Origin: a virus
IMG/VR virus record: IMGVR_UViG_3300005582_000006
Location: 1-64,000 of that record
Strand: one strand, 5' to 3'
DNA: 64,000 nucleotides
Below are positions 2,221-45,612 of this stretch, in pieces. The position numbers and the translations under genes are program-made. A model generated the notes under the pieces. The model was not told where the DNA came from and ran no database searches. It saw only the letters and a list, made by a program, of their open reading frames with translations. Within the stretch, counting starts at the first letter, position 1, and the number at the start of each line of letters is the position of its first letter.

Positions 2221-4020
2221 ATGTTATTAACCATTGGTATGGCTACATATGATGATTTTGATGGTGTTTATTTTACACTTCAAGCACTAAAAGCTTTTCA
2301 CAATCTAGAAGATGTAGAACTTTTAGTAATAGATACAAAGCCTAAATCTTGTGAAGACACTAAGTCAGCATGTGGAAGTGCTGGTGCTAAGTACATACAC
2401 GCTCCAGAAAAAACTGGAACATCTCAATCTAGAAATCATGTTTTTGAAATGGCAACTGGCAAATTTGTAATGTGTATTGATTGTCACATTATTTTTGCAA
2501 AAGACTCTATTGAGAAGCTTAAAGAATACTTAAAGAAAAACGAAAATACAAAAAATTTAATTCAAGGTCCACTTCTTTACGATGACCAAAAAAGCACATC
2601 TACGCATTTTGATCCAGGCTGGAGAGGTCATATGTATGGAACTTGGGGTAATGATCCTAGAATTATTTCAGAAGAAGAATTTGAAATTCCAATGCAAGGT
2701 CTAGGCGTTTTTTGCATGAGGAAAGATGCTTGGCCAGCATTCAATAAGAATTTTCGTGGATTCGGTGGTGAAGAAGGTTACATACAAGAAAAGGTTAGAC
2801 AGAATGGTGGAAAAACAGTTTGTCTTACATTTTTAAAATGGATACATAGATTTGGCAGACCAAAAGGTGTTCCATACCCACTATCTGTTGTAGATAGAAT
2901 TTTTAATTATATTATTGGTTGGACAGAAATTGGTTGGAATCATAGAGAAGTAATTAATTATTTTAGTGGCAAAGTAACGCAGGAAGAGCTATTTAAAGCC
3001 ATTAGTGATTCGTCTAAATTTATTGGTAATCCTGTTCCAATAAACTCTTCAGAAAAAAATGCAATTAAAGTTAAAGCTTATGTTATTGGAAGAGAAAGTG
3101 TAACTACTGAAGAATCATTCAAAAAGATTAAATGGACTAAAGAAAAAGAATATATGTTGGGTGCAAATTTAAAATCTGTACTAGAAAAATTTATTGCAGA
3201 AGGAAATGACTATGCTTTAATATGTAAGGGCAATTTAAGACTAGAAAAAAATATAAACATAATGATTGATTTTTGGCCACTAATTAAAACAGGTCAAGCA
3301 AAGATAACTATATTTGATCAGATAAATAAGTCATCTCTAAAGACAAAGCATTCTCAACTTTCTTATAAAATTGCAGACATTGACGAACTAGACGATGCAC
3401 CTTTATATTTTGTAAGTAAAGATTTTGCACAAAAAGTTCTAGATGATTACAAAGAAGGTGCAGAGTTCTCTTATATTTGTGAAAAAGAAAATATTATTCC
3501 TTTTCTTTACACATTTGAAGAAAACATTCTTAGACTTAGAATGCAATATGTTCCTCTACCTAATGTTGATGGTGGACTTTCAGTTGAAGCAGTAAGAGAA
3601 ATTGTTTGGGCAGCAAACAACTCGTATTGTTTAGATATAAGCTCAGAAGGTCTACAAACCACCCTTGCTCTTTGCCAAAGAGGGCTTGGGGTAGTTAGAG
3701 TAGATGAATATAAAAATCAATCTAAAGAACAATTACAAACGACTATAAAGAATTTTAGCTACGAAAACTTTATTCTTACAGACAAAACAGATGATTTTCA
3801 AGCACCAGAAGACAATCCTAGAACTCTATTAATCAACTACAAGGGGTTGTCTCAAGAACTTATTGATTTCTCATTAATAAAACAAGAAACATTCTTAAGG
3901 CCCAAAGATTGTTTGATTATAGTTAATGCAGATCAAGAAGTTGCAGATATTTATAAAAAATCTGAAAAACTTAGTGTAATTAATTCATCAGACGATTATT
4001 TAATTTTAAAGAAGCTTTAA
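2221..4020 (+). CDS. Multidomain glycosyltransferase, GT27-like (polypeptide GalNAc-transferase-like) N-terminal domain
   Basis: This encodes 599 residues and has a strong ribosome-binding site (AAAGGAGG). Residues 1-215 form a GT-A domain opening LLTIGMATYDD. A DXH metal motif (CIDCH, Asp87-His89) replaces the usual DXD, an FRGFGGEE segment (about 178-185) sits where retaining GalNAc transferases carry WGGEN, and a downstream KWIHRFGR supplies a candidate third metal-ligand His. This combination characterises the GT27 and related GT7-C enzymes that add GalNAc to Ser/Thr of proteins. Residues about 285-440 resemble a second, degenerate GT-A-like domain, and about 465-599 look Rossmann-like (LDISSEG...VVRVDEY), perhaps a methyltransferase fold; both are weak calls. 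Its placement inside the virion module, near a Pro-Thr repeat protein, suggests a virion protein substrate (inference). Confidence 0.7.
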   Translation: MLLTIGMATYDDFDGVYFTLQALKAFHNLEDVELLVIDTKPKSCEDTKSACGSAGAKYIHAPEKTGTSQSRNHVFEMATGKFVMCIDCHIIFAKDSIEKLKEYLKKNENTKNLIQGPLLYDDQKSTSTHFDPGWRGHMYGTWGNDPRIISEEEFEIPMQGLGVFCMRKDAWPAFNKNFRGFGGEEGYIQEKVRQNGGKTVCLTFLKWIHRFGRPKGVPYPLSVVDRIFNYIIGWTEIGWNHREVINYFSGKVTQEELFKAISDSSKFIGNPVPINSSEKNAIKVKAYVIGRESVTTEESFKKIKWTKEKEYMLGANLKSVLEKFIAEGNDYALICKGNLRLEKNINIMIDFWPLIKTGQAKITIFDQINKSSLKTKHSQLSYKIADIDELDDAPLYFVSKDFAQKVLDDYKEGAEFSYICEKENIIPFLYTFEENILRLRMQYVPLPNVDGGLSVEAVREIVWAANNSYCLDISSEGLQTTLALCQRGLGVVRVDEYKNQSKEQLQTTIKNFSYENFILTDKTDDFQAPEDNPRTLLINYKGLSQELIDFSLIKQETFLRPKDCLIIVNADQEVADIYKKSEKLSVINSSDDYLILKKL

Positions 4021-9786: not shown

Positions 9787-12700
9787 ATGGCTTTTAATCT
9801 GACTGCCAATTTAAATGTTGCTGTAAATAGTGGTGCTTTAAAAGCAGCAGCCAATCAAATAAATAGCACATTAGGAAGTGTGAACAGTTTAAAAATAGGA
9901 ACAAATTCTGCAACATTTGCTTCTCTTACTCCATTAAAAACTCAGCTTTCTGAGGTTACTAATTCCATAGAAAATTTTGGTAGGCAAGCTGGCTTTGCTG
10001 CTAAAAGATTTGCTGCATTTGCTGTGACTGCTGGTTCAATTATTACTTTCACTAACAACATTAGAGAAGCACTTTCTGCTGCTGTAGATTTTGATAGAGA
10101 GATGATTAGGCTAAGACAAGTCTCTGGAGATACGGCACAAGATGTTGCTGCTGTAGGTGAACAAATAACAGGTTTGTCTAAGGGTTTGGGTGTTTCAAGT
10201 AAAGATTTAGTTGGTGTAGCAGTAGTTTTAAAACAAGCTAACTTAACTCTTTCCGAAACTAAAGATGCTCTAGAGGCAATGGCACAAGCTGCTTTAGCAC
10301 CAAACTTTGATAACCTCAAAGATACGACTGAAGGTGCTATTGCTATCATGAAGCAGTTTAAGGTCGAGGCAAAGGATCTTGGTTCAGCTTTAGGTTCTGT
10401 TAATGCTGTAGCTGGCGAGTTTGCTGTTGAAGCATCAGATATTATTGAGGCGATTAGAAAGACAGGGGGTGCTTTTAAAGCTGCTGGTGGTAATTTAAAT
10501 GAGCTTATAGCCTTATTTACATCAGTACGACAAACGACAAGAGAAAGTGCCGAAAGTATTGGTACTGGCTTAAGAACTATATTTACACGAATACAAAGAA
10601 ATGATACGGCTAATGCCTTAAAAGAAATTGGTATAAATCTTAGGTATACCGCAGATGAAGCTAAAGCTTTAGGAGATGTTGGTTTAGAACAGCAATTTGT
10701 TGGTCCATACGAAGCTATTAAAAGGTTGTCCTCTGGACTTTCTGAACTAAGGTCAACAGATCCCCGATTTAGTGCCATTGTTGAGCAATTAGGTGGTTAT
10801 AGGCAGATCAGTAAGGTTATCCCACTTATTCAAGAATTTGCTACTGCACAGAAGGCATTAGGGGTAGCTCAAGCTGGTAGTGTGTCTTTGGCTGTTAATG
10901 CTGGTCAAGCACAGGATGCTCTTGCTGTAAAACTACAGAAGTTGAAGGAAAGCTTTTTTGAGGTTGGTAGAAGTATTGTTAATAGCCCTGGCTTTAGAAG
11001 TTTGGCTGATACATTCATTGGTGCTGCCACTTCGGTCTTGTCATTAATCAATTCACTTAAAGGTTTACTCCCATTATTTACTGCTCTCGCTGCTGTAAAA
11101 ATTGGTCAAAGTATTGGTTCTTTTGCCACAGGTTTTGTAAAAGGTGCTGGTGCAGATAATTCTTCTGCAAGAACAAATAAAAAAGCAGATGGCGGTTTTC
11201 TTAGGATGAGAACAGGGGGCATAGTGCCAGGGAGTGGAACTGGGGATAAAGTGCCAGCTTTGCTTGAGCCAGGTGAGTTGGTTGTGCCAAGGAGTCAAGT
11301 AAGAAGAACTAAATACTATAAAGCTGGTCCTGTAAAATTAGAAAAAGTAGGAGGTAAAAAAGATACATCGTCAATAAATACTCTGATTAATAATGATCTA
11401 GACAAAATGTTAAATAAAGAAGACACAATTTATATGGAAGTTGTAGAAAAAAAACAAAAATTATTAAGCGATGAACATAAAAAAGATATTTATTCTTCAT
11501 ATCGTTTGGAAGATTCAGATGCTGAATTGTATTCTGATCCAAATTTTCGACCAATAATGTACGCTTCTGACAACACAAAACCAAAAACAGTAATATCAAC
11601 AGCAGAAGCATTAGAGAAATATAAAACACAAAATCCAAAATTTAAAGAATTATCGATAGATTACTTAAAAAATTTAAAGAGAAAGATTGCTCCAGCAGAA
11701 GCTGCATGGGGGAAAAAATTTGAAAATATTACTCTTGAAAAATACAGTAGTACTATTCAAGCAGCTACAAGACCGACAATAAATGGCAAAATGGTTGCCG
11801 AAAGCACTTATCCAGTAGACACTGAAACAATAAGTCCTAGAAAAAGGAAATATGGAGACATTAAATTTAAAACTAGCAAAGAAGAAAATAATCATTTGTT
11901 AAGTAAACAATTAAGAGCAAAATTGTATTATAAAAAACCTGAAAAATTAGGCTTTAGTAAAAAACTAGGAGATAATGTTGATTTAGGATTATTTGAATAC
12001 TATGGTTCATATGATACAAAACAAAAAGGCAAAACCATACTAGGAGCAAAAGGAGATTTTTTACAATCATTACAAGATTTGCACAATCAAACAAAACCAA
12101 AACTTGCTCTAGGTGGACCAATCCCTCGCCAAAGATTCATGAATGGCAATAGTGTAGGACCAAAACCATTTCCACCAAATTTTTCCCCCGAAGAAATTTT
12201 AAATTTGGTCAAGGGCGTTATTCATACAGATGAAGTGATAAAGGGTGCATTTAGAGTTGCTGCAAAAATAAATCATCCAGACAAGAATCCTACTGCTAAA
12301 CCTAATGGCAACATGGAAAGAGTAAATGCTGCTCTTAGGACTTTATTAGATAGAAACATTCTTATAAGAGCAAGGGCTGAAGCTGGTCCAAAGACCACAG
12401 ATAATACTAGACGAAATACCTCACCACCACCGCCACCAAAAAGAAATGCTCAATCAGAAGATCAAATTTTTAGGGCTGTTTTTGGCGATGCTCCAACTAA
12501 AGACGAAGCAAGAAGTCAATGGAAAGGCACAAATCCAGAGACATTTACCAAACCAAATAGATTTGATAGTTTTGAAGCAGTTAGAAATGCTAGTCAATTT
12601 AGAGAAAAAGAAGAAGCAGCTAAAACAATGAACGCTTCTTCTGCATATAGTGACAGGCTAAGAAAAGCAAAAAGAGGATATGCTAATGGTGGAGATGTAG

Positions 12701-15700
12701 TTAGACAGAAATTTGCTAGTGGTAAGTTTGTTGCTAAAGATACAAAAGGAAATATTGTTCGTGATAGTGTTGATGGTGCAGACGAAGTTGAAATGGCTGC
12801 AAAGATTAGGCAGATGGGATACTTTGTTATATCTCTTGAGCTTGTTGCTGCCAAAAAAGCCTCACAACAAAAACTACAAGAAAGACAAGACAGAAGAGAT
12901 CAAGCAAAAGAAAGAGCGAAAGAACTTAGAAGATATTGGAATATGAATGAGACAGACACAGGTGACATTAATACATCTAGACCTCCAAAAAGAGGTAACA
13001 GTCTTGCAATAGAAGAATCAGAAAGACGAGAAGAAAATGCTAAAGGAATTGTTTTGTCTGGACCAAGTGGTGCTATTGCTGGAGGTATTACTGGTGCTGT
13101 TAGTGGTGCTCTTCTTGGTAATATTCCGGGGGCATTTATTGGTGGCACTTTAGGATTTGGTGCTGGAGCAGTTGGCGGTATGATGTATGACAAATCAAGA
13201 AAATCAGAAGATGAAAAAAATAAAGGTTTGGCTAGATTTTCTTATCAAGACGAACAGGGCAAAAAAGGAATTATTCCTGCTAGAGATAAAGAAGAAGCAA
13301 TAAGAAGATTGTCTTTTGATCGTATTACACCAACAAATATGCGGAGAGTTGCACCAGAAAGATCTTGGGGTGAATATCTCGAACAAAAAAGAAATGATAT
13401 TTTTGGTATAAAAAAAGCATCAATAGAAGAGACAAATAGGGAATCTCGTAGCCGTGAAAGAAAATTTAGTAAAAGCATAGGCAAAGGAGATGCCCCACCA
13501 ATAATGGTAAGGAAACCATCTAAAAAGACCAAAGAATCTAAAAAATATAGTGAAGATATATACAAGCCACTTCCTGCATTAGCATTAGATCCAACTTTAG
13601 GAAAATCAGTAGCAATCACAAAAGAAATGATGGAAGAAAGAAAAAAGGCTAGGGGTTTTGCTTCTGGTGGATTAGTACCAGGAACTGGCAATTCTGACAC
13701 AGTTCCAATGGACTTAGACGAAGGTTCGTTTGTAATTAAAAAGTCTTCAGTTAATAGCATAGGCATTGATAATTTAGCTAATGCTCACAAATTTGCATCT
13801 GGTGGTAAAGTTCCTGCATTACTCACGCCAGGTGAATATGTATATAGCCCTAGCGAAGCAAAGAAAATTGGTGCTAATAAACTTCATCAAATGAATAGTT
13901 TTGCAAAATTTAAAAAAGGTGGTGAAGTTGGTAATAGTATAGTTAGTGATACATTTTTAAATAGCCCAAACAACTTAAAGAAAATACTTTTAACATTAGT
14001 TGATCAAATAATGGAGTCAGATCCAGAAATATCAAAAAAAGATGCAAAAGCAGAAGCCACAAGAATTGTAAGTGAAATAAAAGTTCAAAATCAAACATCA
14101 AATCAAGCAATTGGAAATGTTGCTAGAGCAGATCAAGATATATCGGCAGAAAAATCAAATATTGGTGTTTTTAATAAAGAACTAAAGGGTTTTGGTAAAA
14201 CACTATCTACTTTAGGTAAAGAAGCAACTAGTTTAGCGGAAGCACTTCAGAAGAATACAGATGCAGCAGATGCTTCATATACTGCTGAATTAGAATTAAG
14301 GGCAAAGGGTACAGCAATAGTAGCTGCTAGAGATGCAAAAGTAGCAGCAGGACAAGATTTAACTAAAGAAAATACAAGGGTTGGATCTGCACAAACAAAA
14401 GTAAATGAATTAAAAGATAAAAAGAAAGACATGGAAGAGGCTAGACAAGCAAAAATAGATGCAGCAGATCAAAGAATTGCAGCAGCAGAACAAGCAAAAA
14501 TCACAAAAGAAGCTCAACCAGTAGATTTAACTCAAGAAAATAAAAGAGTTGTTTCAGCAAAACAAAAAGTCGATGATTTAAAGCAAAAAAAGAAGGACAT
14601 GCAAGAAGCGAAGCAAGCAAAAATTGATGCAGCGAGTCAAAGACTTGCAGAAGCAGAAGAAGCAAAAAGATTAAAATCTCAACAGCCAGTAAACTTAAAA
14701 AGTGAAACTGCAAAAGTTGGAAATATTACCGGAAGAATTTCTGTTCTAGAAGCAAGAAAAAAATCTAAATTAGATGCTGGTGAATCAGTTAGAGTTGTGA
14801 ATGCACAAATAGCAGAAGCAAAAAGACAAAGAGATGTATTGACAAAACAGATGGCAGATAAAACTGCTGCTGGACCTAACACAAAAAAAGAACAAGAAGA
14901 AATTGATAAAGCAAAAGAGGAATTAGCAAAAGCTAGTAAGCCATTAAAAACAAAAAACATAGACACAAAAATAATGAGAGCAGAAGATGCTCTTACGCAA
15001 GCTACTACTGCAAGAGACAACAAAGTTCCTAACACAAAAAAAGAACAGGAAGAAATCGATAAGGCGAAAGCAGAAAAATTGGAAGCTGAAAAACCATTAA
15101 AATCAAAAGCAATAGATGCAAAAATAACAAAAGCTGAAAGTGCTTTGACTACAGCAACAAACGCAAGAGATACCAAGGCAAGAACGGCAGTAGACACATC
15201 AAAAGAAGATGCACAAATTTTAAAGTTAAATCAAGATTATCAAAAACTTCTTGATGATAGAAATACAAATGCTCAAAATAGAGTGGCAATAGAAAATAGC
15301 ATTACTGCTGTTGGAACTAAACAATTAAATGTTCAAAATGAAATTTTAAAGACAGAACAAAACATAAAAGATGCAGAATCAAACATACAAAAAGCCGAAA
15401 CAGCAAAAGCAGCAGCAAAAGCATCAGGGGAAAAGGCCACTAGATCATTTCAAGTAAATGCAAAGGGTGAGATTGTAAATGAAAAAGGAAGGCCAATTGG
15501 ACAAACAAAGCCAATAACTACACCTGATTCAATAAAGCAAATTTCAAAACAAAGAGAAAAAGAATACGCTAAACAAAATGATGGTAAAGCCCCTAGAAAA
15601 AGCGAAAGAGAAGATATAAGAAGTGGAATAGTTAATGAATATAGAGTAGCAACAGAAAAACAACTTAGAGCAAAAGCACAAAAAGAAGGAAAACCTGTTA

Positions 15701-18700
15701 GCGAATTGCAAATCCAGTCTATGACTGATCAATACACTAAGCAGTTTGCTCAAGGAAAAAGAGGGGCAGTTTTTAATAAACAAGGTGAAGTAACAGGAGA
15801 TAAGTCTTTAGGATCAAAATTAATTAAAGGTGGAGATTATAAAGAAAGTGGCGATTTAACATTCCAAGGTAAGGTAAAAGATTTTGGAAGTAGAGCACTT
15901 TTTGGTTCAAAACGGACTGATTTTGAAGCTGGTTCAGAAGGAGAGAGACAGTTTAAACAAGATAGAGCATCTGGTTACGCCAATAGAATAACAACTGCTG
16001 CTGTTGGTGGATCTTTACTTGCTTCTGGAATGAGAGCAGAAGCACCAGAAGTTTCTTCTCTTGCAAAAGCAAATGAACAAGGAGTAGTTGTTGAAGATAA
16101 AGCACAGCAAGAAGCTTATAGGTCCACACTTCAATTTGCTGGTGCTATTGAAAAAGCTGGAACATATGCTGCTACTACTGCTACCGCTTTTTCGGCACTT
16201 GGGCCAGTAGGTACTCTTGTAGGCGGTGCTTTAGGTGCATTTGTTGGATTAATAAAAGGTTATGCTGATGGCACTAAAGAAGCAGAGGCACAAATAAGAG
16301 AAGTAAAGTTAGGTGCTGCACTAACAGGATTGCAAGGAACATTTGATAAATTAAATACTGGTTTAAGAACTTTTGATGATACTATTGCCGAATCAATTGC
16401 AGCAAATCAAAAAATTATTACTGAAGCAAACGCTGGAAAAGCATTCGTTGAAGCTGGTGGAGAGAAAAGTGGTTTTGATAGATTAATATCTGGAATTACT
16501 GGTGGCGGTTTTGGTGGATTTGATGTTAAAAAATTCAACGAATTAAATTCAAAAAGTCAAAAAGAAGCTGGTGCTGCACAAATAGTTCCACTTACGAACA
16601 TTTTAAATAAACAAGCCGAACAACTTGGTTCTAGTGCAGTAAGACAGGCTGGTGGAAATGCTGGAACATTAGACTATAAAGATTTTGCAGCATCATTAGA
16701 TACCAAATTAACTAGTGGCGGTGGTGGATTTAATAATGCACAAATACAAAAAATTGCTAATGCAAGAAATGTAAGCTTTGATGATGTTAAAAAAGAAATT
16801 GTAAAAGTAATGAAAGATTCTTTTAAAGCTGCACAATTAGAAAAAACTCAAAAAGAAGCAGTAACTGTAAATCAAAGATCTATAAATTCTATGGCATTAT
16901 TATCAGAAGCAGTTGTTGCTGCTGCTAATTCGGTAGAAAGTTTCTCTAATAGGTTAAGCACAAATGAGTCATTTTTTAGTGGCGGTATTGGATCAACAAA
17001 AGTAACTGGAATTTCTAATCAGTTTGATCAAAAATCAACTCCAGACTTTAATTCTTTTAATTCTGCCGTTTCTAAACTTTCTGATTCACTTGGAACTTAT
17101 GGCAATGAATTTAAGACTCAAGGAAATGCGATTAATGCAGCTTCACAAGCATTGCCTTCATTACTTGCTGGTGCAATAGAAGATCCTGTTGGTGGTCAAG
17201 ATATAGCCGTACAAATAGCTGCTGGTTTAAGAGAAGCTTTAAGTGCTCAAGGTATTAGTGGGGCTGGAGCAGATAGAGTCGTAAGTTCTGTTGCTGGAAA
17301 TGTATCTGGACAAGAATACACAAAGCTACTTGCTGAAGCTGGTGGCGATGTATCTAAAGTTGCAGAAAAACTACTTGGCAATATAAAAGACCCATTTTTA
17401 AATGCAGCTAAAGATATAAGTCAAAGATTAGAAAATGCAAGTAATCAATACATTAGTGGTTTAGAAAATTTAGCTCAAAGACAAAAACAAATTGGCGAAT
17501 CGTTTAAAAACTTAGAAAGTGCAAAACTACAGAGAGATAAGTTTACAGCAGAGACTGTTGCTACAAATGCTGGTTTGCCATCACAAGCAGGGAATTTGAT
17601 TTCAGTAGATAGACAAATGCAAGGCTTTAGAACAAATCAAGAAAGACTTACTGGAACCAAAGGAGCAGAAGCACAGGACTCCAGAGTAATTGGAGATAAC
17701 TTAAAAAGAACGCAAGAAAGAATTAGGGAATTAGAACCCAAAGTACAGAATGCTTCTGGTGCAGAAGGTGGTGGGGCTGCATTTAGAGGTGCAGCATCTG
17801 AGTTAGTTAAATTAAAATCAGAAGCTTCAAATTTGCAAGAGTCATTAAAGAATTTGGCAGATCAATCAAACAATCTTGCTATTTTGGAAGGCAAACTTGG
17901 TCAAGTAAGACAAGAAAGAGATAATGAAACTCAAAGAGGAAAAGAGTTTTTAACGGCAGATCCAAAAGAAAGACAAAAAATATTAAGAGATAGAGTTCAA
18001 GGACAAGGACTACTTAAACAAGCACAAGCTCAAGGTGGAAATGTAAGTAATTTTAGTTCTGGACAAAACAAAGCACTTTTTGCATTCTTAGATAGTTTTG
18101 GTCCAGTTGGAAAAGATATTGCAGACAACATTGTGCGTAATACTACTGGTTTAGGGAAAAAGAAACCAGAAGAAGATATGTTAGTTGGAAAATTAGCCAA
18201 AGTATATGACGAGCAAGTAAAAGCAAATCAAGAGTTAATTGGTAATCAAAGAAGTTTACAGACTGATTATTTTTCTCAGTTGACAAAACAAAATACTACA
18301 TTTTATTCAAACCTAGATAAATTTATTGCTGGCATGGAAAAAAGTCAAGTTCAAGATGAAAAAAATAGAGAAGTTGCAAAGTCTGCAAAAATAAAAGATG
18401 TTCAAGAAAAAAGTGGTTTTCTTAGAGAAGCTGGAGTAACTGATGAAAATCTAAAAGATGTTAATGCAAATAAAGGAAAAATATCAGAAGTAATAAAAGC
18501 AAGAGAAGCAGCAAAAGAAGAGGAAAAAAGATCTGTAAATATTAATGAGTCAATGAGAGAAGGTGATTTCGCACAATCTCTAGGAAGATCATTCACTAAA
18601 GATGCAAGAGAAGCAGATGCAGCAAAAGAAATTGGATCAAAAGGAGAAACATTAAATGACATACTTTCAAAAATAGGATTGACAGGAAAACAAAGCTCTC

Positions 18701-21700
18701 TAGTTCGTGAGCAAGCAACAATTGCTGTAACTCAAAATAAAGATTTAAACATAGAAGAAGCAATAAAAATAGCTATAAGACAAGTATCGGGTCAAACAGT
18801 TAATGATGCAGAAAAAAGAGTGAGTACAGCAGAAAAAGGTGCTGGAGCACTTGGCGTTAATATTGCCAATAAAGCACAAGAACAAGGAATAAGTGCAGAA
18901 AAGTTTGAATCTAGTCTTGCAGCAGTTACCGAATTAAATCAAGGTATTGGGGTAAAACTTACAACGGCAGCAAGTACTGCTACAGCAAATATTGATAGAT
19001 TATCTGCATCCATTAATAGTTTAGGGGCACAACAACAAGGTATTGCTCCAGTTAATGTAAATGCTAATCCTGCACAAGCAATTGGATTTGCAGTTGGTGG
19101 TCCAGCATTTTCCCCAAGAGGAACTGATACTGTTCCAGCAATGTTGACACCAGGAGAATTTGTAGTAAATAGAAGTGCAACACAACGAAATCTCCCACTG
19201 CTTCAATCTATAAATAGTGGAAAAACATCGTATTTAGCAGATGGTGGAGAGGTATTGGGAAAAAGAATAAAAGCATCAGAAGATGTAATGAAAATATGGG
19301 ATACCCCAGGATTAAAACAAGAAGAAAAAATAGCTTCAATTAGAAACATCATAAGCAATAAATATAATTCTCTTAAAGAGTCTTCTTTAACTAATGTTCC
19401 TAATGGAATAGAAGGCGAATCAAGAAAGTCTGCTGCTTCTGCAATATTGCAAGAGGTTATTTCATCTTTATCAATAGGTCAAATTCCAAAAAATGAAAGT
19501 GCTAAAAGGGTAATCGATAGCAATGGTGGAATTGAATCACTTCAAGATTTTGGAAATATTTTTGGTGATTTTAAAAGAAAAGGAGATACAGAAAATTCAC
19601 TAGGTTATAGAACAAAAGAAATAAATGATAATTATGAAAAAATTAAAAAAGAAATGTTAGATGAAAAGTTATTAGATCCAACAGAATCATATGAAAACTT
19701 TAAAAAAGATAATAAATATAATTATGAGTTATTATATAGCAAATATGATCCTGCAAACATAAGGACTGCCCTTAATAGTGTGATGATAGAAGCTGGTAGA
19801 GATGCAACAGTAAAAGAAAAAGTTGTTGCTGGATTACTTGGTGCTGGTTCTGCAATTATTGCTGCTCCTATCGCTATTGGTGGCGTAGCTCTTTCTGGTG
19901 CTGGAGCTTTAGGAGCGAGTATTAGTGGGGCTTCTGTTACTGCTGCTGGAGCTACAACTTATGGACTTGGAAAACTTATAATGTCAGAGTCCGCAGAAGA
20001 AAAAAAGAGAATGGATTTATTTAAATTGGATGCAGCAATAGCAGATCCAATAAACCAAGATAATACACATGGGTATTCTGCTGCTGTTTCAACAGGAGCA
20101 AATATTAAAAAGTTTGCAGATTTAGAAACATTGAATTCAAAAAAAGAATTTGCAGAAGGAATGAAAAGGATAAAAGAAGACTTTAATCATGTTTACAAAT
20201 ATGGAGTTTCTGGAAATGTTAAAACGCCAGGCTGGTGGGGAAAAACAAATGAAGAAAAAATGAATACTGATTTATTAAAAGAAACATGGTATTACAAAGG
20301 AACTAATGGTGGTGCTATAGATGTAGCAAAAGATGGCTATACATGGCCAGGTATTCAAAATTATAGTGGTGAAAAGGTTAATACTTTTATTCAGCCCCTT
20401 ATTGATAAGGCAAATGCTCCAGATCCATCAAACGCACAAAAAATAAAAAATTACTTAAAAAGAAAAAATATATCTGATAAAACATATTTAATTCCAGATG
20501 ATTTAAATGATTTAAATCAATTTATTGTAAATCCAGAATATTTAAAAAGTTTAAATGCTGCTGGCACTAAAGATATAGATGCTAATATAGATGCTAAAAT
20601 ACCACAATATATTGCAACAATAGCAAATTTAAAAGCACAAAAGAAAGACATTGTTTCAGAAAAGAAACAAGAAAATATAGTTGCCAACATTGCAAACGAA
20701 GAAGGCACAACGCCCATAGATACGCAGATAAGAATGGCAGAGAATGAGGTTCTTGCAGCAAGAGGGAATAAAGAATTAGAATCTAAGAAAAAAGCAGAAT
20801 TAGAAATATTAAAACTAAGAAGAACAAGCTATAACCAAACTGGATTAACATCTAATGAAAAGTTAAGAAATGCTTATGGTCAAAATAGACCAGAAATAGA
20901 TAAGAGCTATGTTGAATCTAAAGCTTATCTTACTCAAATAAAAGAAGGAACTGGAGAGAAGTTTGTCGCTACAGATATGGGCAAAGAAGACGAGCTTTTC
21001 TTAAAGAGACAGGGCGATGCAGGAAGATTAGCACAAATAGGTTTAAGAAGAGAAGTGCAAGCTAGTGCTATACTTGGCAAAATGGTAAAGCTAAAAGGTA
21101 TTTTTGCTAAAAATCAAGGCGAAGAATTAAACAAAAAAGAATTTGCTGAAATTGGTAAAGATCCAAATCAATTAATACCTTTAGGCTTAAAAGAATACAA
21201 TAATTTATACAGTGGACAAAAAGGAAGTTTAGCAAAAGAAGACTTTGATAATCCTAAACTTATACTTCCATTCCAAAAAGAAATTGTTGGATCTTTCTTT
21301 AAACAACAAGCAAGCACAAGATCTTTAGCAATAAGTGGTAAGGGTCTTCTTGACTTTATTGATCAATATTCAAACATAAAAGACACTAAGGGTTTTGTTG
21401 AAGCAAAGGTAAAACAAGCTGGACCAGATGCTATACCTTTAGTTGTAAGGGCGATAGAAGAAGGAAAAATAAATGCGTTGAGCGTTCTTAATGCAGCAGC
21501 AGCAAATGTTGGTGGTATAAGCAGAAAGAGCTTAGAAGGTGCTATTGGAAGAAATAAAGACTTTAATCTATTAGATAAGCTCTCCGAAAAACAAGAAGGA
21601 AAAGCACAAAAAATTGTTAAACCATTCTCTGGAATTGATTTTATAGAAGGTGAAGATGGTGCTTATGCAACTATAAAGGCAGTAAGTGGAAAAGGTCAAG

Positions 21701-24700
21701 TTTCGATGTCTGCCAATAATACCGCATTAAGAATAGCTGCTCCTTACTTGCCAAAATCAATTTATAAACAAGATATTCTTGCTGGAGAAGCATATAACAA
21801 TGATGGATTAAAAAAATTGGCTGGTGATAGACCAACATTGGGAAGTCCTAATAGCTCTTTCACATTTCCAGCAGATGGGCCAAGTCTTTTTACTACAGAA
21901 GATTTTTTAAATGCTGTAAGTAATTCACAGGGGTACGCAACTATTTCATCAAAAGCAGTAGTTGTAGAAGAAGATGTTGAAGGTAAGAAACAAAGAAAGA
22001 TTGATTATAAAAGAAATTTAGATGTTGCAAATATTGAAAATTCTAAAACTAGAGAGGCGATGAAAAATCGTTTAAAGCGTATAAATGACATAGAGGGAAT
22101 TAATAAACCGAATCAACCAGAAGAAAATAAAAATGTAGTTAAAGGAGAACCCAATGAATTTCAAGCTGCAATTATAAAAGAAAAAAATGAACAGAGTGCT
22201 CTTGCAGCTAGACTACCTAGAGCAACCAAAGAGCAACAATTATTTGAAGGCCAATACGGAGAACTAAGTGTTGAAAGTCGATTAAATAGGGGTGAAATAA
22301 CTAGAGAAGAAGCAGCAGCACAAATAGAACGACAAAGACAAGCTAGAAAAATGTCATCTGGTGGAATAGTAAACTATCTTTCATCTGGTGGTGTTCCTAG
22401 TCATAGTCCTAATCCTGATCCTTCGTTCTTTAAGCCTAAAGGTACAGATACAGTACCAGCTATGCTTACGCCAGGTGAGTTTGTAATAAATGCCTCTGCT
22501 ACTGCTAAACATGGCGATTTATTAAGTGCTATAAATAGTGGTAAAGATGTTGGATATTCTGCTACTGGTGGAATAATTTATTTAGAAGATGGTGGAGAAG
22601 CAAGAAAAAAAGCATTTTATGAAAAAATGAATAAGCGAAAAAATGACGAAGAAAAATTAAGATATTTAGTTGATGATAAAGATAAAGATAAAAATACCTA
22701 CATGCAAGACAGAAAAGATGATTTAGAATCTACTGCTAATAGGGCAACTCAAACTTTTTCTCGTAGGCAGAACCAATTTATACAAGATGAAGACAAGAGC
22801 AATAATGCTGGAACAGAAATGGTTTTTAATGCTATGGGGATGACTGGACTTGCAAAAGCAGGAATATCTGCAATTTCAAAATTTGCAATGAGTCCATCAC
22901 TTAACGCTGCTGGTCAGGGAGCAAAAAATATTGGGAAAAACTATTTTAAATACGAAGCACAAAATCAAGTGCAAAACACAGGTATAGATATTTTTAAGTC
23001 AAATGCGGAAAAATTACTTAGATATGCAAGCGGTGGATTAGTAAGTTATTTATATGATGGTGGATACTTAAAAAGAAGAGCAAACTTAGCTTCTTATAGT
23101 GGCAGTGAAAATGAATATGTTACAGATCAAGAAGAAGTTGGTAAACAAAATACGGCAAATATAACCAATAGAATAGCAGCAAAGAATCAAGCTGAAAACA
23201 ATGCATTTCAAATGTTTTCTAACATTAGATTTAATGACGGAACTGGTAGTCTTTTTGACAATACACAATCTGGATTTTCTACTGGATCTGGTGGTGTTTC
23301 TGCTCAACAAGCACTATCTTTTCAAGATCCAACTAAGCCTGGTGGAGAAGGCATAACATCAGCAGCAATGGGTATGATTGGAGATGTTCAATCCAGAATG
23401 AAGGGTAATAAAAATCCATATGGAAATATTTCTGTTACTGGTGCAGAATTAAACGAATTAAAATCTGCAAAAGCAAATGAACCAGAAATACAGAAGAGGT
23501 ATGATGAATATAAAAAGTTTATAGAAGAACAAAAAAAACAACAAGAAGAAGAATCTGGTAGTACATATGCAAGTTTGGGGGGATTGATTTATGCTCAAGG
23601 TGGACTTTATCTTCCTCGTAATAATTATAGACCATATGTTTCAATTCCAGATAGCAGTTACACAGGTAGCGGAGGTTACTTTGGTGATAATGAATCTATT
23701 AATAATGGTGGGGGTTATTTTGGTGAAAGTGGAGATAAAATAGAAAGACAACAAAAACTTTACGAAATTCAAAAGAAAAAACAAAAAAGTCCTCGTTACC
23801 TACAAGCAGAACAATATCAACAACAACAATTTCAACTTAGAAATCAAGCATATCAATCACAACAACGAAAATCGCAAAATCCTAAACGACAACAACAGCC
23901 AGAACAATGGCAAATAAATTGGCAACAACAGCAACAAGCAAGTGGATATAAAAATCCATATGCAGCATTGCAATCAAAACCAATGTTTCCAGAACAGAGA
24001 CAACAACAATCAGAAAATTTTCAAAATCAAAGGGCATATCAAGCAAAGCAAGAAATGTATGGCGGTCCTAGTGCCCAACCAGTATTTCAAGCAAGTAACT
24101 ATGCAGGAAGTTTCTTTAATCAAGTTCCACAGCAACAACAAGTAGCACAAGACCCAAAACGAAAACAATTAAGTTTGTTTAGAATGAATCTAGGGTCATA
24201 TAGTTCTGGTGGTAATGTAGATACTATTCCAGCTATGTTAACTCCTGGTGAGTTTGTAGTAAATAAACAAGCATCATCTAAAAATTATTCTTTATTACAT
24301 GCAATCAATAGTGGCAAAGAAGTTGCTAGATTTAAAGATGGTGGTAGCGTTGGAAATATTCGTGGAAGAAAAGTAGACCCAATAGAATCTGGAATAAGTC
24401 TATTAGCTGGTAAGCTATCTGGAGTTGGAAATAAATTTATTGAGAGTGGAGATTCATTCAAGACTGGAGCAAATGCTAATAGGGAAGGATCACAAAACAT
24501 ATTGGCTTCTTCATCAAAGTTTAATTCTGGAGTTGGAAGTTTTGCTGATTCTGCTACTAAAATATCAAAAAGAAAGGGCTATAATTCTGGTGGTCTGGTA
24601 AACTATTTTGCAGATGGTGGATTCACACCAAGAGGCACAGACACTGTTCCCGCTATGCTGACACCAGGAGAGTTTGTGGTAAATAGACAATCAACATCTA

Positions 24701-25119
24701 AAAATTTAAATTTATTAAAAAATATAAATGGAAATGCTAGTTATATGTCTAATGGTGGAGTTATGTATGCTAGAAGGGGTGCTTTTGTTGGAAATTCATC
24801 GCAAGACTCATCTCCAGCAATAGATATGACTTCAGTTACAGAATTAGCTAATGCAATAAGTACATTAGGAACTACATTTCTCAAACCTTTTGGTGAACAA
24901 GTAGATGCATTTAAAAATTATGCTGAAGCTTTACAAACACAAATCAATAAAATACCAACAGTAGTAAGAATAGAAGTCATGGGTAGTTTAAATGCTGCTT
25001 TAAATATTGACTTTAATCCAGATGGCGTATATACAGCGGTAACACAAGCAACGCAAGAATTACAAGGGTTTATAATTGCAGAAATAAATAAACAACTTGG
25101 AAATGATATGAGAGCATAA
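9787..25119 (+). CDS. Giant tail tape measure protein
   Basis: This encodes 5110 residues; the start is supported by GAGGT and a fresh transcription boundary. Residues about 30-400 resemble the TP901-type tape measure core, and extended charged helices dominate the rest. Recognisable parts, in order: a possible PD-(D/E)XK-like segment (about 620-760, weak); a J-domain-like unit with HPDKNP (about 799-855, His830); two short GspF-N-like units (about 975 and 1147); three Gly/Ala-rich hydrophobic segments (about 1096-1135, 2123-2165, 3347-3400) able to insert in a membrane; tandem coiled-coil duplications (1524-1635, 1698-1800); and a Gln-rich stretch (about 4650-4790). At least seven PGEFVVN-type motifs are scattered along it. 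It sets tail length and is ejected with the DNA. The usual 0.15 nm per residue would imply a tail of about 0.75 micrometre. Confidence 0.9.
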   Translation: MAFNLTANLNVAVNSGALKAAANQINSTLGSVNSLKIGTNSATFASLTPLKTQLSEVTNSIENFGRQAGFAAKRFAAFAVTAGSIITFTNNIREALSAAVDFDREMIRLRQVSGDTAQDVAAVGEQITGLSKGLGVSSKDLVGVAVVLKQANLTLSETKDALEAMAQAALAPNFDNLKDTTEGAIAIMKQFKVEAKDLGSALGSVNAVAGEFAVEASDIIEAIRKTGGAFKAAGGNLNELIALFTSVRQTTRESAESIGTGLRTIFTRIQRNDTANALKEIGINLRYTADEAKALGDVGLEQQFVGPYEAIKRLSSGLSELRSTDPRFSAIVEQLGGYRQISKVIPLIQEFATAQKALGVAQAGSVSLAVNAGQAQDALAVKLQKLKESFFEVGRSIVNSPGFRSLADTFIGAATSVLSLINSLKGLLPLFTALAAVKIGQSIGSFATGFVKGAGADNSSARTNKKADGGFLRMRTGGIVPGSGTGDKVPALLEPGELVVPRSQVRRTKYYKAGPVKLEKVGGKKDTSSINTLINNDLDKMLNKEDTIYMEVVEKKQKLLSDEHKKDIYSSYRLEDSDAELYSDPNFRPIMYASDNTKPKTVISTAEALEKYKTQNPKFKELSIDYLKNLKRKIAPAEAAWGKKFENITLEKYSSTIQAATRPTINGKMVAESTYPVDTETISPRKRKYGDIKFKTSKEENNHLLSKQLRAKLYYKKPEKLGFSKKLGDNVDLGLFEYYGSYDTKQKGKTILGAKGDFLQSLQDLHNQTKPKLALGGPIPRQRFMNGNSVGPKPFPPNFSPEEILNLVKGVIHTDEVIKGAFRVAAKINHPDKNPTAKPNGNMERVNAALRTLLDRNILIRARAEAGPKTTDNTRRNTSPPPPPKRNAQSEDQIFRAVFGDAPTKDEARSQWKGTNPETFTKPNRFDSFEAVRNASQFREKEEAAKTMNASSAYSDRLRKAKRGYANGGDVVRQKFASGKFVAKDTKGNIVRDSVDGADEVEMAAKIRQMGYFVISLELVAAKKASQQKLQERQDRRDQAKERAKELRRYWNMNETDTGDINTSRPPKRGNSLAIEESERREENAKGIVLSGPSGAIAGGITGAVSGALLGNIPGAFIGGTLGFGAGAVGGMMYDKSRKSEDEKNKGLARFSYQDEQGKKGIIPARDKEEAIRRLSFDRITPTNMRRVAPERSWGEYLEQKRNDIFGIKKASIEETNRESRSRERKFSKSIGKGDAPPIMVRKPSKKTKESKKYSEDIYKPLPALALDPTLGKSVAITKEMMEERKKARGFASGGLVPGTGNSDTVPMDLDEGSFVIKKSSVNSIGIDNLANAHKFASGGKVPALLTPGEYVYSPSEAKKIGANKLHQMNSFAKFKKGGEVGNSIVSDTFLNSPNNLKKILLTLVDQIMESDPEISKKDAKAEATRIVSEIKVQNQTSNQAIGNVARADQDISAEKSNIGVFNKELKGFGKTLSTLGKEATSLAEALQKNTDAADASYTAELELRAKGTAIVAARDAKVAAGQDLTKENTRVGSAQTKVNELKDKKKDMEEARQAKIDAADQRIAAAEQAKITKEAQPVDLTQENKRVVSAKQKVDDLKQKKKDMQEAKQAKIDAASQRLAEAEEAKRLKSQQPVNLKSETAKVGNITGRISVLEARKKSKLDAGESVRVVNAQIAEAKRQRDVLTKQMADKTAAGPNTKKEQEEIDKAKEELAKASKPLKTKNIDTKIMRAEDALTQATTARDNKVPNTKKEQEEIDKAKAEKLEAEKPLKSKAIDAKITKAESALTTATNARDTKARTAVDTSKEDAQILKLNQDYQKLLDDRNTNAQNRVAIENSITAVGTKQLNVQNEILKTEQNIKDAESNIQKAETAKAAAKASGEKATRSFQVNAKGEIVNEKGRPIGQTKPITTPDSIKQISKQREKEYAKQNDGKAPRKSEREDIRSGIVNEYRVATEKQLRAKAQKEGKPVSELQIQSMTDQYTKQFAQGKRGAVFNKQGEVTGDKSLGSKLIKGGDYKESGDLTFQGKVKDFGSRALFGSKRTDFEAGSEGERQFKQDRASGYANRITTAAVGGSLLASGMRAEAPEVSSLAKANEQGVVVEDKAQQEAYRSTLQFAGAIEKAGTYAATTATAFSALGPVGTLVGGALGAFVGLIKGYADGTKEAEAQIREVKLGAALTGLQGTFDKLNTGLRTFDDTIAESIAANQKIITEANAGKAFVEAGGEKSGFDRLISGITGGGFGGFDVKKFNELNSKSQKEAGAAQIVPLTNILNKQAEQLGSSAVRQAGGNAGTLDYKDFAASLDTKLTSGGGGFNNAQIQKIANARNVSFDDVKKEIVKVMKDSFKAAQLEKTQKEAVTVNQRSINSMALLSEAVVAAANSVESFSNRLSTNESFFSGGIGSTKVTGISNQFDQKSTPDFNSFNSAVSKLSDSLGTYGNEFKTQGNAINAASQALPSLLAGAIEDPVGGQDIAVQIAAGLREALSAQGISGAGADRVVSSVAGNVSGQEYTKLLAEAGGDVSKVAEKLLGNIKDPFLNAAKDISQRLENASNQYISGLENLAQRQKQIGESFKNLESAKLQRDKFTAETVATNAGLPSQAGNLISVDRQMQGFRTNQERLTGTKGAEAQDSRVIGDNLKRTQERIRELEPKVQNASGAEGGGAAFRGAASELVKLKSEASNLQESLKNLADQSNNLAILEGKLGQVRQERDNETQRGKEFLTADPKERQKILRDRVQGQGLLKQAQAQGGNVSNFSSGQNKALFAFLDSFGPVGKDIADNIVRNTTGLGKKKPEEDMLVGKLAKVYDEQVKANQELIGNQRSLQTDYFSQLTKQNTTFYSNLDKFIAGMEKSQVQDEKNREVAKSAKIKDVQEKSGFLREAGVTDENLKDVNANKGKISEVIKAREAAKEEEKRSVNINESMREGDFAQSLGRSFTKDAREADAAKEIGSKGETLNDILSKIGLTGKQSSLVREQATIAVTQNKDLNIEEAIKIAIRQVSGQTVNDAEKRVSTAEKGAGALGVNIANKAQEQGISAEKFESSLAAVTELNQGIGVKLTTAASTATANIDRLSASINSLGAQQQGIAPVNVNANPAQAIGFAVGGPAFSPRGTDTVPAMLTPGEFVVNRSATQRNLPLLQSINSGKTSYLADGGEVLGKRIKASEDVMKIWDTPGLKQEEKIASIRNIISNKYNSLKESSLTNVPNGIEGESRKSAASAILQEVISSLSIGQIPKNESAKRVIDSNGGIESLQDFGNIFGDFKRKGDTENSLGYRTKEINDNYEKIKKEMLDEKLLDPTESYENFKKDNKYNYELLYSKYDPANIRTALNSVMIEAGRDATVKEKVVAGLLGAGSAIIAAPIAIGGVALSGAGALGASISGASVTAAGATTYGLGKLIMSESAEEKKRMDLFKLDAAIADPINQDNTHGYSAAVSTGANIKKFADLETLNSKKEFAEGMKRIKEDFNHVYKYGVSGNVKTPGWWGKTNEEKMNTDLLKETWYYKGTNGGAIDVAKDGYTWPGIQNYSGEKVNTFIQPLIDKANAPDPSNAQKIKNYLKRKNISDKTYLIPDDLNDLNQFIVNPEYLKSLNAAGTKDIDANIDAKIPQYIATIANLKAQKKDIVSEKKQENIVANIANEEGTTPIDTQIRMAENEVLAARGNKELESKKKAELEILKLRRTSYNQTGLTSNEKLRNAYGQNRPEIDKSYVESKAYLTQIKEGTGEKFVATDMGKEDELFLKRQGDAGRLAQIGLRREVQASAILGKMVKLKGIFAKNQGEELNKKEFAEIGKDPNQLIPLGLKEYNNLYSGQKGSLAKEDFDNPKLILPFQKEIVGSFFKQQASTRSLAISGKGLLDFIDQYSNIKDTKGFVEAKVKQAGPDAIPLVVRAIEEGKINALSVLNAAAANVGGISRKSLEGAIGRNKDFNLLDKLSEKQEGKAQKIVKPFSGIDFIEGEDGAYATIKAVSGKGQVSMSANNTALRIAAPYLPKSIYKQDILAGEAYNNDGLKKLAGDRPTLGSPNSSFTFPADGPSLFTTEDFLNAVSNSQGYATISSKAVVVEEDVEGKKQRKIDYKRNLDVANIENSKTREAMKNRLKRINDIEGINKPNQPEENKNVVKGEPNEFQAAIIKEKNEQSALAARLPRATKEQQLFEGQYGELSVESRLNRGEITREEAAAQIERQRQARKMSSGGIVNYLSSGGVPSHSPNPDPSFFKPKGTDTVPAMLTPGEFVINASATAKHGDLLSAINSGKDVGYSATGGIIYLEDGGEARKKAFYEKMNKRKNDEEKLRYLVDDKDKDKNTYMQDRKDDLESTANRATQTFSRRQNQFIQDEDKSNNAGTEMVFNAMGMTGLAKAGISAISKFAMSPSLNAAGQGAKNIGKNYFKYEAQNQVQNTGIDIFKSNAEKLLRYASGGLVSYLYDGGYLKRRANLASYSGSENEYVTDQEEVGKQNTANITNRIAAKNQAENNAFQMFSNIRFNDGTGSLFDNTQSGFSTGSGGVSAQQALSFQDPTKPGGEGITSAAMGMIGDVQSRMKGNKNPYGNISVTGAELNELKSAKANEPEIQKRYDEYKKFIEEQKKQQEEESGSTYASLGGLIYAQGGLYLPRNNYRPYVSIPDSSYTGSGGYFGDNESINNGGGYFGESGDKIERQQKLYEIQKKKQKSPRYLQAEQYQQQQFQLRNQAYQSQQRKSQNPKRQQQPEQWQINWQQQQQASGYKNPYAALQSKPMFPEQRQQQSENFQNQRAYQAKQEMYGGPSAQPVFQASNYAGSFFNQVPQQQQVAQDPKRKQLSLFRMNLGSYSSGGNVDTIPAMLTPGEFVVNKQASSKNYSLLHAINSGKEVARFKDGGSVGNIRGRKVDPIESGISLLAGKLSGVGNKFIESGDSFKTGANANREGSQNILASSSKFNSGVGSFADSATKISKRKGYNSGGLVNYFADGGFTPRGTDTVPAMLTPGEFVVNRQSTSKNLNLLKNINGNASYMSNGGVMYARRGAFVGNSSQDSSPAIDMTSVTELANAISTLGTTFLKPFGEQVDAFKNYAEALQTQINKIPTVVRIEVMGSLNAALNIDFNPDGVYTAVTQATQELQGFIIAEINKQLGNDMRA
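12181..12355 (+). other. J-domain-like module inside the tape measure protein
   Basis: In the tape measure frame, residues about 799-855 contain a helix ending VAAKINHPDKNP followed, after a short loop, by MERVNAALRTLLDR. This matches helix II, the invariant HPD loop (His830-Pro831-Asp832) and helix III of DnaJ-type J-domains. J-domains stimulate the ATPase of DnaK/Hsp70. The match in motif and spacing is visible directly; the function here is inferred. Confidence 0.65.
14356..14691 (+). repeat. Tandem 168-base (56-residue) coiled-coil duplication
   Basis: Two adjacent copies, beginning gatttaactaaagaaaat at 14356 and gatttaactcaagaaaat at 14524, encode DLTxENxRV followed by lysine-rich heptads and a closing QPV. 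They lie in the long coiled-coil part of the tape measure protein. Confidence 0.85.
14878..15183 (+). repeat. Tandem 153-base (51-residue) coiled-coil duplication
   Basis: Copies starting at 14878 and 15031 both encode NTKKEQEEIDKAK followed by similar charged helices and end in ARDxK. This is a second, independent tandem duplication in the tape measure coiled coil. Confidence 0.85.
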
Positions 25120-38548: not shown

Positions 38549-39246
38549 AACCACTCCATAATATCGCTTTGATCTATTGTAGATTGATTAAACTCGACAT
38601 CTATTTGTGGGCATGAATCATTTGTTTCTAAAAAGAAACAATTCAAATTTAAAAATTTAACTTCTTTGTTGTCTTCAGTATCATAAAACGACTTAACTGT
38701 ATAGTCAGCTATTTTGGCTGGATATTCAAAGTTATATATTGGAAATTTAAAACACTCTTTCATTAAAAAATTTGAAAGATTAGAAGATGCATCCGTAAGT
38801 CCAACTTGAACATATGGTGGCATTGAATAGCAATTCATTGTATTTACAAAGTCATCGTTTATTTGATCTGCAAATTCCTTAAAACAGTTATTCCCATAAA
38901 TAATCTGAGGGCTTACAACCACCTTTCTTTTTGTGCAAAATTTATCGCAAACTTTATGGGCTAGACTTTTTGATTCTTGATATGTTTTTAAATTATATGT
39001 TTCCATCAAATGTTCTGGTTTTGTTTTAATAACAGTCCAAGAACACCTTGCTGCGTAAGTTTTTAAAACATCAATTATACCATTAGATGTTTCGTTATCT
39101 TCTATAGCTATAATTACTTTTAAAGTAGAGTTAGTGAAGTCTCTAGTTATCCACCACAAACACTTTCTGAGATGATCTGAAGATTTGACAAAACCTAAAT
39201 TTACACTCAATATTTCTCTAGAATTTTCTTTAGTTCCAATAGACAT
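38542..39246 (-). CDS. Hypothetical sugar-island protein, possible GT-A fold
   Basis: This encodes 234 residues with a good AGGAGT site inside the upstream gene, which it overlaps by 40 bases. The N-terminal part (VNLGFVKSSDHLRKCLWWI...KVIIAIEDN) resembles the first strands of family-2 glycosyltransferases, and KVVVSPQIIYGNN could replace the DXD region, but no acidic metal motif is evident. Eight Cys are scattered without CxxC pairing. It is most likely a divergent GT-A protein, judged from pattern and position only. Confidence 0.5.
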   Translation of the reverse strand: MSIGTKENSREILSVNLGFVKSSDHLRKCLWWITRDFTNSTLKVIIAIEDNETSNGIIDVLKTYAARCSWTVIKTKPEHLMETYNLKTYQESKSLAHKVCDKFCTKRKVVVSPQIIYGNNCFKEFADQINDDFVNTMNCYSMPPYVQVGLTDASSNLSNFLMKECFKFPIYNFEYPAKIADYTVKSFYDTEDNKEVKFLNLNCFFLETNDSCPQIDVEFNQSTIDQSDIMEWLC

Positions 39247-40073: not shown

Positions 40074-40074
40074 C

Positions 40075-40761
40075 TTAGCCTCTTTTCACTAGTTTCTTTG
40101 CTCTATCTATATCTTTGGAAGTATCTATCTCAACCATTTTCCAGTTGTTGTTCCTATGAGCTTTAAATATACCAGACTGATCTATTATTTCATTAAAAAT
40201 TTCAAAGCAAAATTTCTTATGTGATCTTTCATTGTTTGTTATTTTTTTATAGAGAAGCAATTCATTTCCAGTGAGCATAGCTATATGCCCCCACTTTGGA
40301 CTTACGCCATAGGAAAAATGAACCACATTGTTATCAACTACATTAACTCCAACTTCCATAGATCTTTGATTTTTTTCATTATCTATAGCAACCCAAGAAT
40401 TATTTTTTGGAGTTTCCTTAAATATTTCATCTGTAAAAACAAGATCGCCATAAATTATTAAAAGTTTTGAGTAGTTATTTCTACTTAAAGCTAAATTAAC
40501 AGACATTGATGTATTCGTAGATTCATAGCTTTTGTTTTCTATATATGAAATTAAAGATGGTATTTTTTCTAATACTTTATCTTTTTGAAATCCTACTATT
40601 ACAGTTATTTCATACTTTGGAAAACATGATTGAATTATGCTTATTTGTCTACCTATAACTGTTTGATCTGACGATATGCCAATAGCCGATTTAGGACCAT
40701 ATGCCTTCATTCTTTTGCCAAGGCCAGCAGCTAATATAACAACGCCAAGTTTATGAGCCAT
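40075..40761 (-). CDS. Sugar-phosphate nucleotidyltransferase
   Basis: This encodes 228 residues. The N-terminus VVILAAGLGKRMKAYGPK is the nucleotidyltransferase signature (GxGxRM...PK), followed by IVGF, a SYESTNTSMSVNLAL segment, and LLIIYGDLVFTD, which provides the metal-binding Asp. A later VEIDTSKDIDRAKKL matches the C-terminal end of LicC/HddC-type enzymes. It would activate a sugar (or choline) phosphate with an NTP and supply the island's transferases. It overlaps the family-2 transferase gene by 11 bases and could partner with the GHMP-like kinase two genes downstream. Confidence 0.8.
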   Translation of the reverse strand: MAHKLGVVILAAGLGKRMKAYGPKSAIGISSDQTVIGRQISIIQSCFPKYEITVIVGFQKDKVLEKIPSLISYIENKSYESTNTSMSVNLALSRNNYSKLLIIYGDLVFTDEIFKETPKNNSWVAIDNEKNQRSMEVGVNVVDNNVVHFSYGVSPKWGHIAMLTGNELLLYKKITNNERSHKKFCFEIFNEIIDQSGIFKAHRNNNWKMVEIDTSKDIDRAKKLVKRG

Positions 40762-45611: not shown

Positions 45612-45612
45612 T

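Follow-up and report, generated by a model that had tools for sequence, protein, structure and literature searches.

The first 64 kb of the 76,246-base virus record IMGVR_UViG_3300005582_000006 (64,000 nucleotides, hereafter the window) encode on the plus strand a 599-residue glycosyltransferase (GT; open reading frame, ORF, 2221-4020), which lies downstream of an ORF with a long Pro-Thr tract (1-1140, same strand). In our best reading, which we consider fairly probable, this enzyme is predicted to be a Ser/Thr O-glycosyltransferase resembling the polypeptide GalNAc-transferases (GalNAc-Ts) of family GT27 and to act on Pro/Thr-rich (P/T-rich) stalks of virion proteins. An earlier note on this DNA had proposed a GT27-like enzyme from three short motifs and from its Pro-Thr neighbour. 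The reading developed here draws on the predicted structure of the catalytic domain, the conservation of its motifs across relatives and the gene linkage seen in phages and bacteria.

Fold, motifs and family of the glycosyltransferase

The ORF matches PF00535 (Glycos_transf_2) over residues 5-109 (E 5.7e-13; 49.6 bits, above the gathering cut-off of 23.3), as do 80 of 80 relatives at E up to 1, and its call as GT27-like also draws on relatives at 15 viral loci. The GT domain is confined to residues 1 to about 270. An AlphaFold2 model of this catalytic GT-A domain (residues 1-275 as modelled, 2221-3045), built from an alignment of 80 rows, had a mean pLDDT of 96. When compared with PDB using Foldseek, it matched ppGalNAc-Ts in all 50 matches listed (the best at E 1.4e-14, out of 569 with E no higher than 0.001), and in VIA the matches ranked 1-29 were all GalNAc-Ts, with Z from 24.3 to 19.9 and identities of 12-16% in the listed rows. 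The best of these was GalNAc-T2 (Z 24.3, rmsd 2.7 over 254 residues, 15% identity); the first match of another kind was GlfT2 (18.9), followed by the chondroitin polymerase K4CP (18.4) and, lower, B4GALNT1 (17.3). The comparison to GT27 structures that the earlier note had suggested hence puts GalNAc-Ts above the other listed GT-A families, as far as fold and motifs are concerned.

The motifs quoted by that note, CIDCH (residues 85-89, 2473-2487), FRGFGGEE (178-185, 2752-2775) and KWIHRFGR (206-213, 2836-2859), are all present in the ORF and are conserved across the 80 relatives. In the 80-row relative alignment, D87, H89, E184 and E185 are invariant (80/80), and W207, H209, R210 and F211 are identical in 79 rows, the remaining row having a gap there; the invariance of D87, H89, E184 and E185 across relatives argues that these motifs did not arise by chance. 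A D-x-H motif and a later His serve as metal ligands in GT27, and CIDCH, with D87 and H89, is the predicted metal site here. A profile of the C-terminal half of the GT domain placed GALNT7 first (E 0.19), pairing the GGE region of FRGFGGEE with the WGGEN of GALNT7 and H209 with the His of its RVGHIY. This residue pairing fits the structure match despite the non-significant E value.

At the sequence level the relation to GT27 is less clear. GalNAc-T matches there fall short of significance, GALNT7 reaching only E 0.58 with the family profile besides the 0.19 given above. The signature WGGEN, which is general in GT27 and was observed here in GALNT7, is replaced by FGGEE, and E185, not the GT27 Asn, is found in 80 of 80 relatives. 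The inverting GT7 enzymes carry an acidic base at the position of the GGEN Asn, and the GT7 C-domain PF02709 gave weak matches in 17 of the 80 relatives (best 3.9e-04) and no match for the window GT domain at E up to 1. Because of E185 and these weak matches, we call the enzyme GT27-like and leave its donor and linkage open; judged from sequence, the anomeric outcome could be inverting instead of retaining alpha as in GT27. What stands of the GT27 pattern proposed earlier is therefore the fold with the D-x-H, His and GGE motifs, whereas strict membership of GT27 is not supported.

The same family profile ranked first a GlcNAc-transferase (6h1j, which we take to be TarP; 4.9e-07), with chondroitin synthase at 4.7e-05. 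Like the GT2-type Pfam domain, these matches would suit an enzyme that makes or modifies a host surface polysaccharide and thereby brings about superinfection exclusion or a change of serotype. We regard this as very unlikely, since the ORF has no hydropathy peak of membrane type, its gene sits among conserved genes that are probably of late type, and chondroitin and teichoic-acid GTs rank below the GalNAc-T entries among the VIA matches listed.

The C-terminal region (residues 276-599, 3046-4020) diverges faster than the GT domain in the relative alignments and falls into no recognised family, Pfam giving no lectin match over residues 261-599 and a PDB profile search no significant match. A GT25-like or methyltransferase-like C-terminal half, as found in some bacterial relatives, was considered and is unsupported by Pfam and by profile searches. 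The full-length AlphaFold2 model, made from the 14-row alignment A1, was poor (pLDDT 46).

Close relatives are 49-95% identical to the window GT, with conservation mainly in residues 1-270 (14 rows including the window). A scan with the close-relative alignment returned 296 viral stretches that code for a relative, from which the top 80 were retained, and bacterial or archaeal relatives were found at 57 loci among 84,980 species genomes, with at most 54% identity over the GT domain. These scans used two peptide patterns per collection and missed other relatives; among INPHARED phages, tblastn at E 1e-5 found none. The occurrence of relatives in many viruses and bacteria indicates that the GT domain belongs to a widespread prokaryotic family and is not private to the source phage.

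Linkage of the enzyme to Pro/Thr-rich proteins

In the source phage family, a P/T/S-rich ORF lies upstream of the GT in 14 of the 15 records having upstream sequence (L014-L017 are near-duplicates; L012 lacks upstream sequence). Co-occurrence with Pro-Thr proteins in related phages, which the earlier note had put forward as a check, thus proved positive, and it extends beyond the source family. Across viral loci, the gene directly upstream of the GT (position -1) was P/T-rich, defined by a combined density of P and T of 0.6 or more in 25 residues, in 9 of 34 cases versus 4 of 419 at fifteen other positions (Fisher p 1.5e-08). The corresponding counts at bacterial loci were 8 of 46 versus 6 of 476 other neighbours (p 4e-06). 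These figures are based on automatically called ORFs no shorter than 80 residues at 85 of 137 loci, made non-redundant by a 4-mer overlap filter, with loci lacking a motif-matched GT ORF excluded, and two of the eight bacterial cases (L110 and L133) lie on the opposite strand. Other gene positions at the same loci served as the control; the GT2 of the source phage (L002:3364-4098, minus strand) gave 9 loci, too few and too closely related. The repeat units of the tracts vary and include PT, TTTTPEP, TnAP, TTST and TETEPPV.

When the presence of a P/T-rich neighbour was mapped onto the GT tree, it changed 22 times over 75 rows, and this scatter indicates that the linkage was not inherited as a single arrangement. 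Noise accounts for part of it, since the labels also cover weak bacterial cases lying as far as 3.5 kb from the GT, on either strand. In the tree, 37 of 77 inner branches are weak, one terminal branch (L142) is long and two rows (L148, L081) have an unusual composition; the labels were set by hand, five rows without information were omitted, and L145, with a Ser/Thr tract below threshold, was scored negative.

The converse search gave a mixed result. Where a T12 codon run was the sole ground for selecting viral loci, six of the 120 listed carry the GT, and in four of these it directly follows the tract ORF (one of the four being a 96-residue fragment at the locus end); one of the six, L398, belongs to the source phage family (50% identity over 598 residues). 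At the level of whole records, a T8 codon pattern occurred in 13 of 18 GT-bearing virus records versus 2 of 17 GT-free records. Without the five records already known for tracts beside the GT (L004, L011, L065, L072 and L082), the proportion was 8 of 13 (p 0.007). With every GT-bearing record tested taken together, the figure was 20 of 39 (p 0.007), or 15 of 34 (p 0.03) once the same five were removed. The 18 GT-bearing records were chosen by hand and the GT-free set was non-random, consisting of 17 records longer than 61 kb from 80 listed of 120 TP-repeat loci; T8 matches are DNA patterns on either strand, independent of reading frame. A backward T8 pattern used as control did not differ between the sets (6 of 18 versus 7 of 17; 2 of 27 in the myophage lineage described below), the T12 pattern was found in 0 of 17 GT-free records, and a TP4 pattern in one of the 18 GT-bearing records (L004).

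The position of the P/T-rich gene also bears on a different acceptor. The enzyme might glycosylate another virion protein, such as a neck, head or tail tube protein, or extend existing chains, the P/T-rich neighbours being mere companions in surface-protein loci. Two conserved genes do separate the tract ORF from the GT in the source family, and 18 of 27 myophage-lineage records keep the GT without a T8 pattern, in line with this view. Enrichment exactly at -1 speaks against this, with P/T-rich neighbours at 0 of 31 viral loci at -2 and 0 of 36 at +1 under the same threshold, as does a fold nearest to peptide GTs that initiate chains, and on balance we find it unlikely.

Several observations weigh against the reading as a glycosyltransferase of P/T-rich stalks. 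The gene at -1 falls short of the P/T-rich threshold at 25 of the 34 viral loci and at 38 of the 46 bacterial ones; many records are fragments. The GT is absent from all 120 loci selected by a (TP)7 run, which is the kind of tract found in the window (6 versus 0 for T12-picked and (TP)7-picked loci, p 0.03). At locus L013, whose GT is 80% identical, the 8-10 kb preceding the GT contain no P/T-rich ORF, and its T8 patterns lie more than 20 kb from the GT. A myophage lineage keeps the GT as a core gene, in 26 of its 27 records that exceed 55 kb (from 80 loci), and only 9 of the 27 contain the T8 pattern; either the link to Thr is not obligatory or the substrates there have shorter tracts. The acceptor in this lineage could be a nucleic acid or another protein. 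Finally, long Pro-Thr or Thr tracts also arise as plain linkers and as products of replication slippage.

In two members of the myophage lineage that were scanned, the gene before the GT encodes an exonuclease (PHROG 69, E 3.8e-22 and 8.5e-20). This exonuclease failed as a lineage-matched control because 26 of the 27 records carry the GT. Its position next to the GT would favour hypermodified phage DNA as the glycosylation target, and phage GTs that modify DNA have been described (Pyle 2024, as cited in PMC12619734). We judge such a target highly improbable, given that the source GT appears to lie within a series of conserved, virion-type genes, that its fold is nearest to peptide GTs, and that bacterial relatives adjoin leader-bearing precursors with Thr-rich tails, though no search was aimed at genes for base hypermodification. 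A gene whose product starts with MP(I/L)P often comes next after the GT in this lineage (L041, L049, L052, L057, L064 and others).

Those bacterial precursors are small ORFs with a leader ending in W-x-K/R-P...P-x-HA, found by strict pattern at 9 of 57 bacterial loci (three copies in L109, two in L114) and by eye at three more (L106, L116 and L134). A Thr-rich tail above threshold occurs at 8 of the 12 leader-ORF loci. The full set comprises L104, L106, L109, L114, L116, L117, L120, L123, L128, L131, L134 and L136, with variable, often Thr-rich C-termini; an NCBIfam scan of the leader ORFs of L123 and L109 gave no convincing match for either. A scan for extra domains, covering nine phage and bacterial GT proteins, showed that the L123 GT carries PqqD (PF05402, 3.3e-13) and GT25 (9.3e-11) domains and the L145 GT a methyltransferase domain (2.6e-06). 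An HprK_rel_A-like N-terminal region was detected in the L099 GT (E 2.3e-21) and more weakly in that of L108 (1.5e-09), with scores below the NCBI cut-offs. PqqD-type domains bind peptides in RiPP pathways, and a PqqD domain on the L123 GT, along with leader precursors that have Thr tails, fits a peptide acceptor.

More tentatively, and as a possibility to which we give somewhat less than even weight, phages and bacteria may share a mucin-type system of their own. A GT27-like initiator would read Thr/Pro tracts whatever their repeat, acting on stalks in phages and, in bacteria, on proteins that combine a W-T/K-K-P...PAHA leader with a Thr tail, aided by HprK-like and PqqD-like helpers, and the GGEE motif would set it mechanistically apart from eukaryotic GT27.

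The Pro-Thr protein and other genes of the phage

The proposed acceptor in the window is the Pro-Thr-rich protein encoded at 1-1140. The ORF opens with a tract of 145 residues (1-435), of which 71 are Thr and 73 Pro by composition count, followed by a non-repetitive part of 234 residues, and holds 73 PT and 71 TP dipeptides. It has no start codon because the record begins inside the repeat, so that only the C-terminal part of a modular protein is present; longer relatives occur in L019 and L018. The earlier note had placed a protein with 72 Pro-Thr dipeptides about 1.1 kb upstream of the GT. The distance holds, at 1080 bp from the end of the ORF to the GT start, and the count is corrected to 73, for a protein that is truncated at its 5' end and separated from the GT by two genes. 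Both of these are conserved in relatives' loci and lie on the plus strand; the first (1190-1720, 176 residues) has no family by Pfam or PHROG, and the second (1732-2190, 152 residues) has a weak match to phrog_22789 (E 0.018). The note's label of tail protein is not supported, the best PHROG matches being E 0.041 and 0.053.

Inspection by eye of relatives suggests how the complete protein may be built. L019 has three adjoining ORFs (670, 1081 and 1202 residues) with differing front modules followed by PT, PS and SP tracts. The front modules include a trypsin-like protease and Cys-rich repeats, and two of the three ORFs end in a domain resembling the end of the window ORF. The relative in L018 has a front module resembling a beta-propeller repeat protein, also by eye, and in L022, from a sister clade, Thr runs replace Pro-Thr. 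We infer from this plan a modular surface fibre with a head, a disordered stalk and an anchor, which would probably have a virion or tail role. One of the L019 proteins (L019:41-2053) combines a Pro-Thr stalk with a trypsin-type front (GDSGSAL by eye; PHROG protease E 9.3e-09), possibly a virion-borne protease on a stalk.

Downstream, the GT is followed by a run of genes conserved in relatives, up to an ORF of 5110 residues at 9787-25119 that, by its length and place, resembles a tape measure protein. Further sugar-related genes are found on the minus strand. By Pfam these are an NTP-transferase (40075-40761; PF12804, E 1.3e-08), a candidate sugar nucleotidyltransferase; a second GT2-type glycosyltransferase (40751-41524; PF00535, E 1.4e-22); and three PF00534 glycosyltransferases at 42791-43786 (E 3e-18, a candidate chain extender), 44472-45611 (E 2.2e-13) and 45613-47112 (E 1.1e-10). 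They belong to a minus-strand set at 39207-47112 with the NTP-transferase and four to five further glycosyltransferases, including a weak PF13524 match, and with PhoH among them. Two more GTs lie past the window, at record positions of about 65.4-66.1 and 71.6-72.6 kb.

DNA polymerase III alpha is apparently split on the minus strand (47516-51970), with the PHP and catalytic part at 50048-51970, the finger domain at 47516-49141 and an ORF of 212 residues (49146-49784) between the two parts. In L002, a peptide deformylase-like ORF (11292-11786, minus strand; by eye) was noted near the record end.

Proposed mechanism and comparison with known systems

In the mechanism that we propose, the N-terminal domain, built in the model like a polypeptide GalNAc-T, would be a GT-A glycosyltransferase whose metal and nucleotide sugar are probably bound by D87, H89 and H209. 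It would transfer a first sugar, from a donor left open, probably to hydroxyl groups of Thr (and Ser) in the unfolded, Pro/Thr/Ser-rich stalks that phage-encoded surface proteins carry, in a linkage that could be inverting given GGEE in place of GGEN. We infer the stalk as acceptor from the gene linkage in the source phage family, in unrelated phages and in bacteria; in this phage the acceptors would be the product of ORF 1-1140 together with its paralogues. The GTs and nucleotidyltransferase at 40-47 kb, with the two GTs past the window, may extend the glycan, and the product would be mucin-like, sugar-coated virion stalks with a putative role in shielding, stability or adhesion.

Mucin-type O-glycosylation is, to our knowledge, regarded as a eukaryotic trait. 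If the proposal is right, a family of GT27-like enzymes that occurs widely in phages and in many bacterial phyla, with candidate substrates encoded beside it, would be a prokaryotic counterpart of mucin-type O-glycosylation and perhaps bear on its origin. It would also offer a possible reason why phages retain long Thr-rich stalks, and enzymes with visible candidate acceptors could be of use in glycoengineering. Among open-licence PMC papers, searched by title and start of abstract, we found no GT27-like phage or bacterial enzyme linked to Thr-rich proteins. What appears new is the combination of such a family with this linkage, as GT27 chemistry itself is known from eukaryotes.

Glycosylation of phage virions as such is known: glycans are reported on the major capsid proteins of phages Che8 and Rita (PMC11256854; also PMC12619734). 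These mycobacteriophages resemble the system described here in that phage-encoded GTs are proposed and glycans are borne by virion proteins. They differ in that the glycans are reported to lie on the C termini of major capsid and tail tube proteins, and the portions of PMC11256854 and PMC12619734 available to us mention neither a Thr-rich stalk nor a GT27-like fold.

The bacterial loci recall the HPr-rel-A peptide system (TIGR04352, TIGR04353) through the HprK_rel_A-like region of the L099 and L108 GTs and the PqqD domain of the L123 GT. The scores against the two models fall below the NCBI cut-offs, however, and a GT with a Thr-tail precursor is not part of TIGR04352/TIGR04353.

The GT7 or chondroitin-type enzymes with GGED (PF02709, K4CP, B4GALNT1) share an acidic residue after GGE with the phage enzyme, but score lower in the structural comparison (18.4 and 17.3 for K4CP and B4GALNT1) and have D-x-D where D-x-H is found here. 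The GT27 enzymes carry a C-terminal ricin-like lectin domain (PMC4202792). Compared with these polypeptide GalNAc-Ts, the phage and bacterial enzyme has GGEE and not GGEN, has no recognised ricin-type lectin domain and is only 12-16% identical, yet it shares with them the catalytic fold, the D-x-H, the second His and the GGE motif, and Thr/Pro-rich sequences as the likely acceptors.
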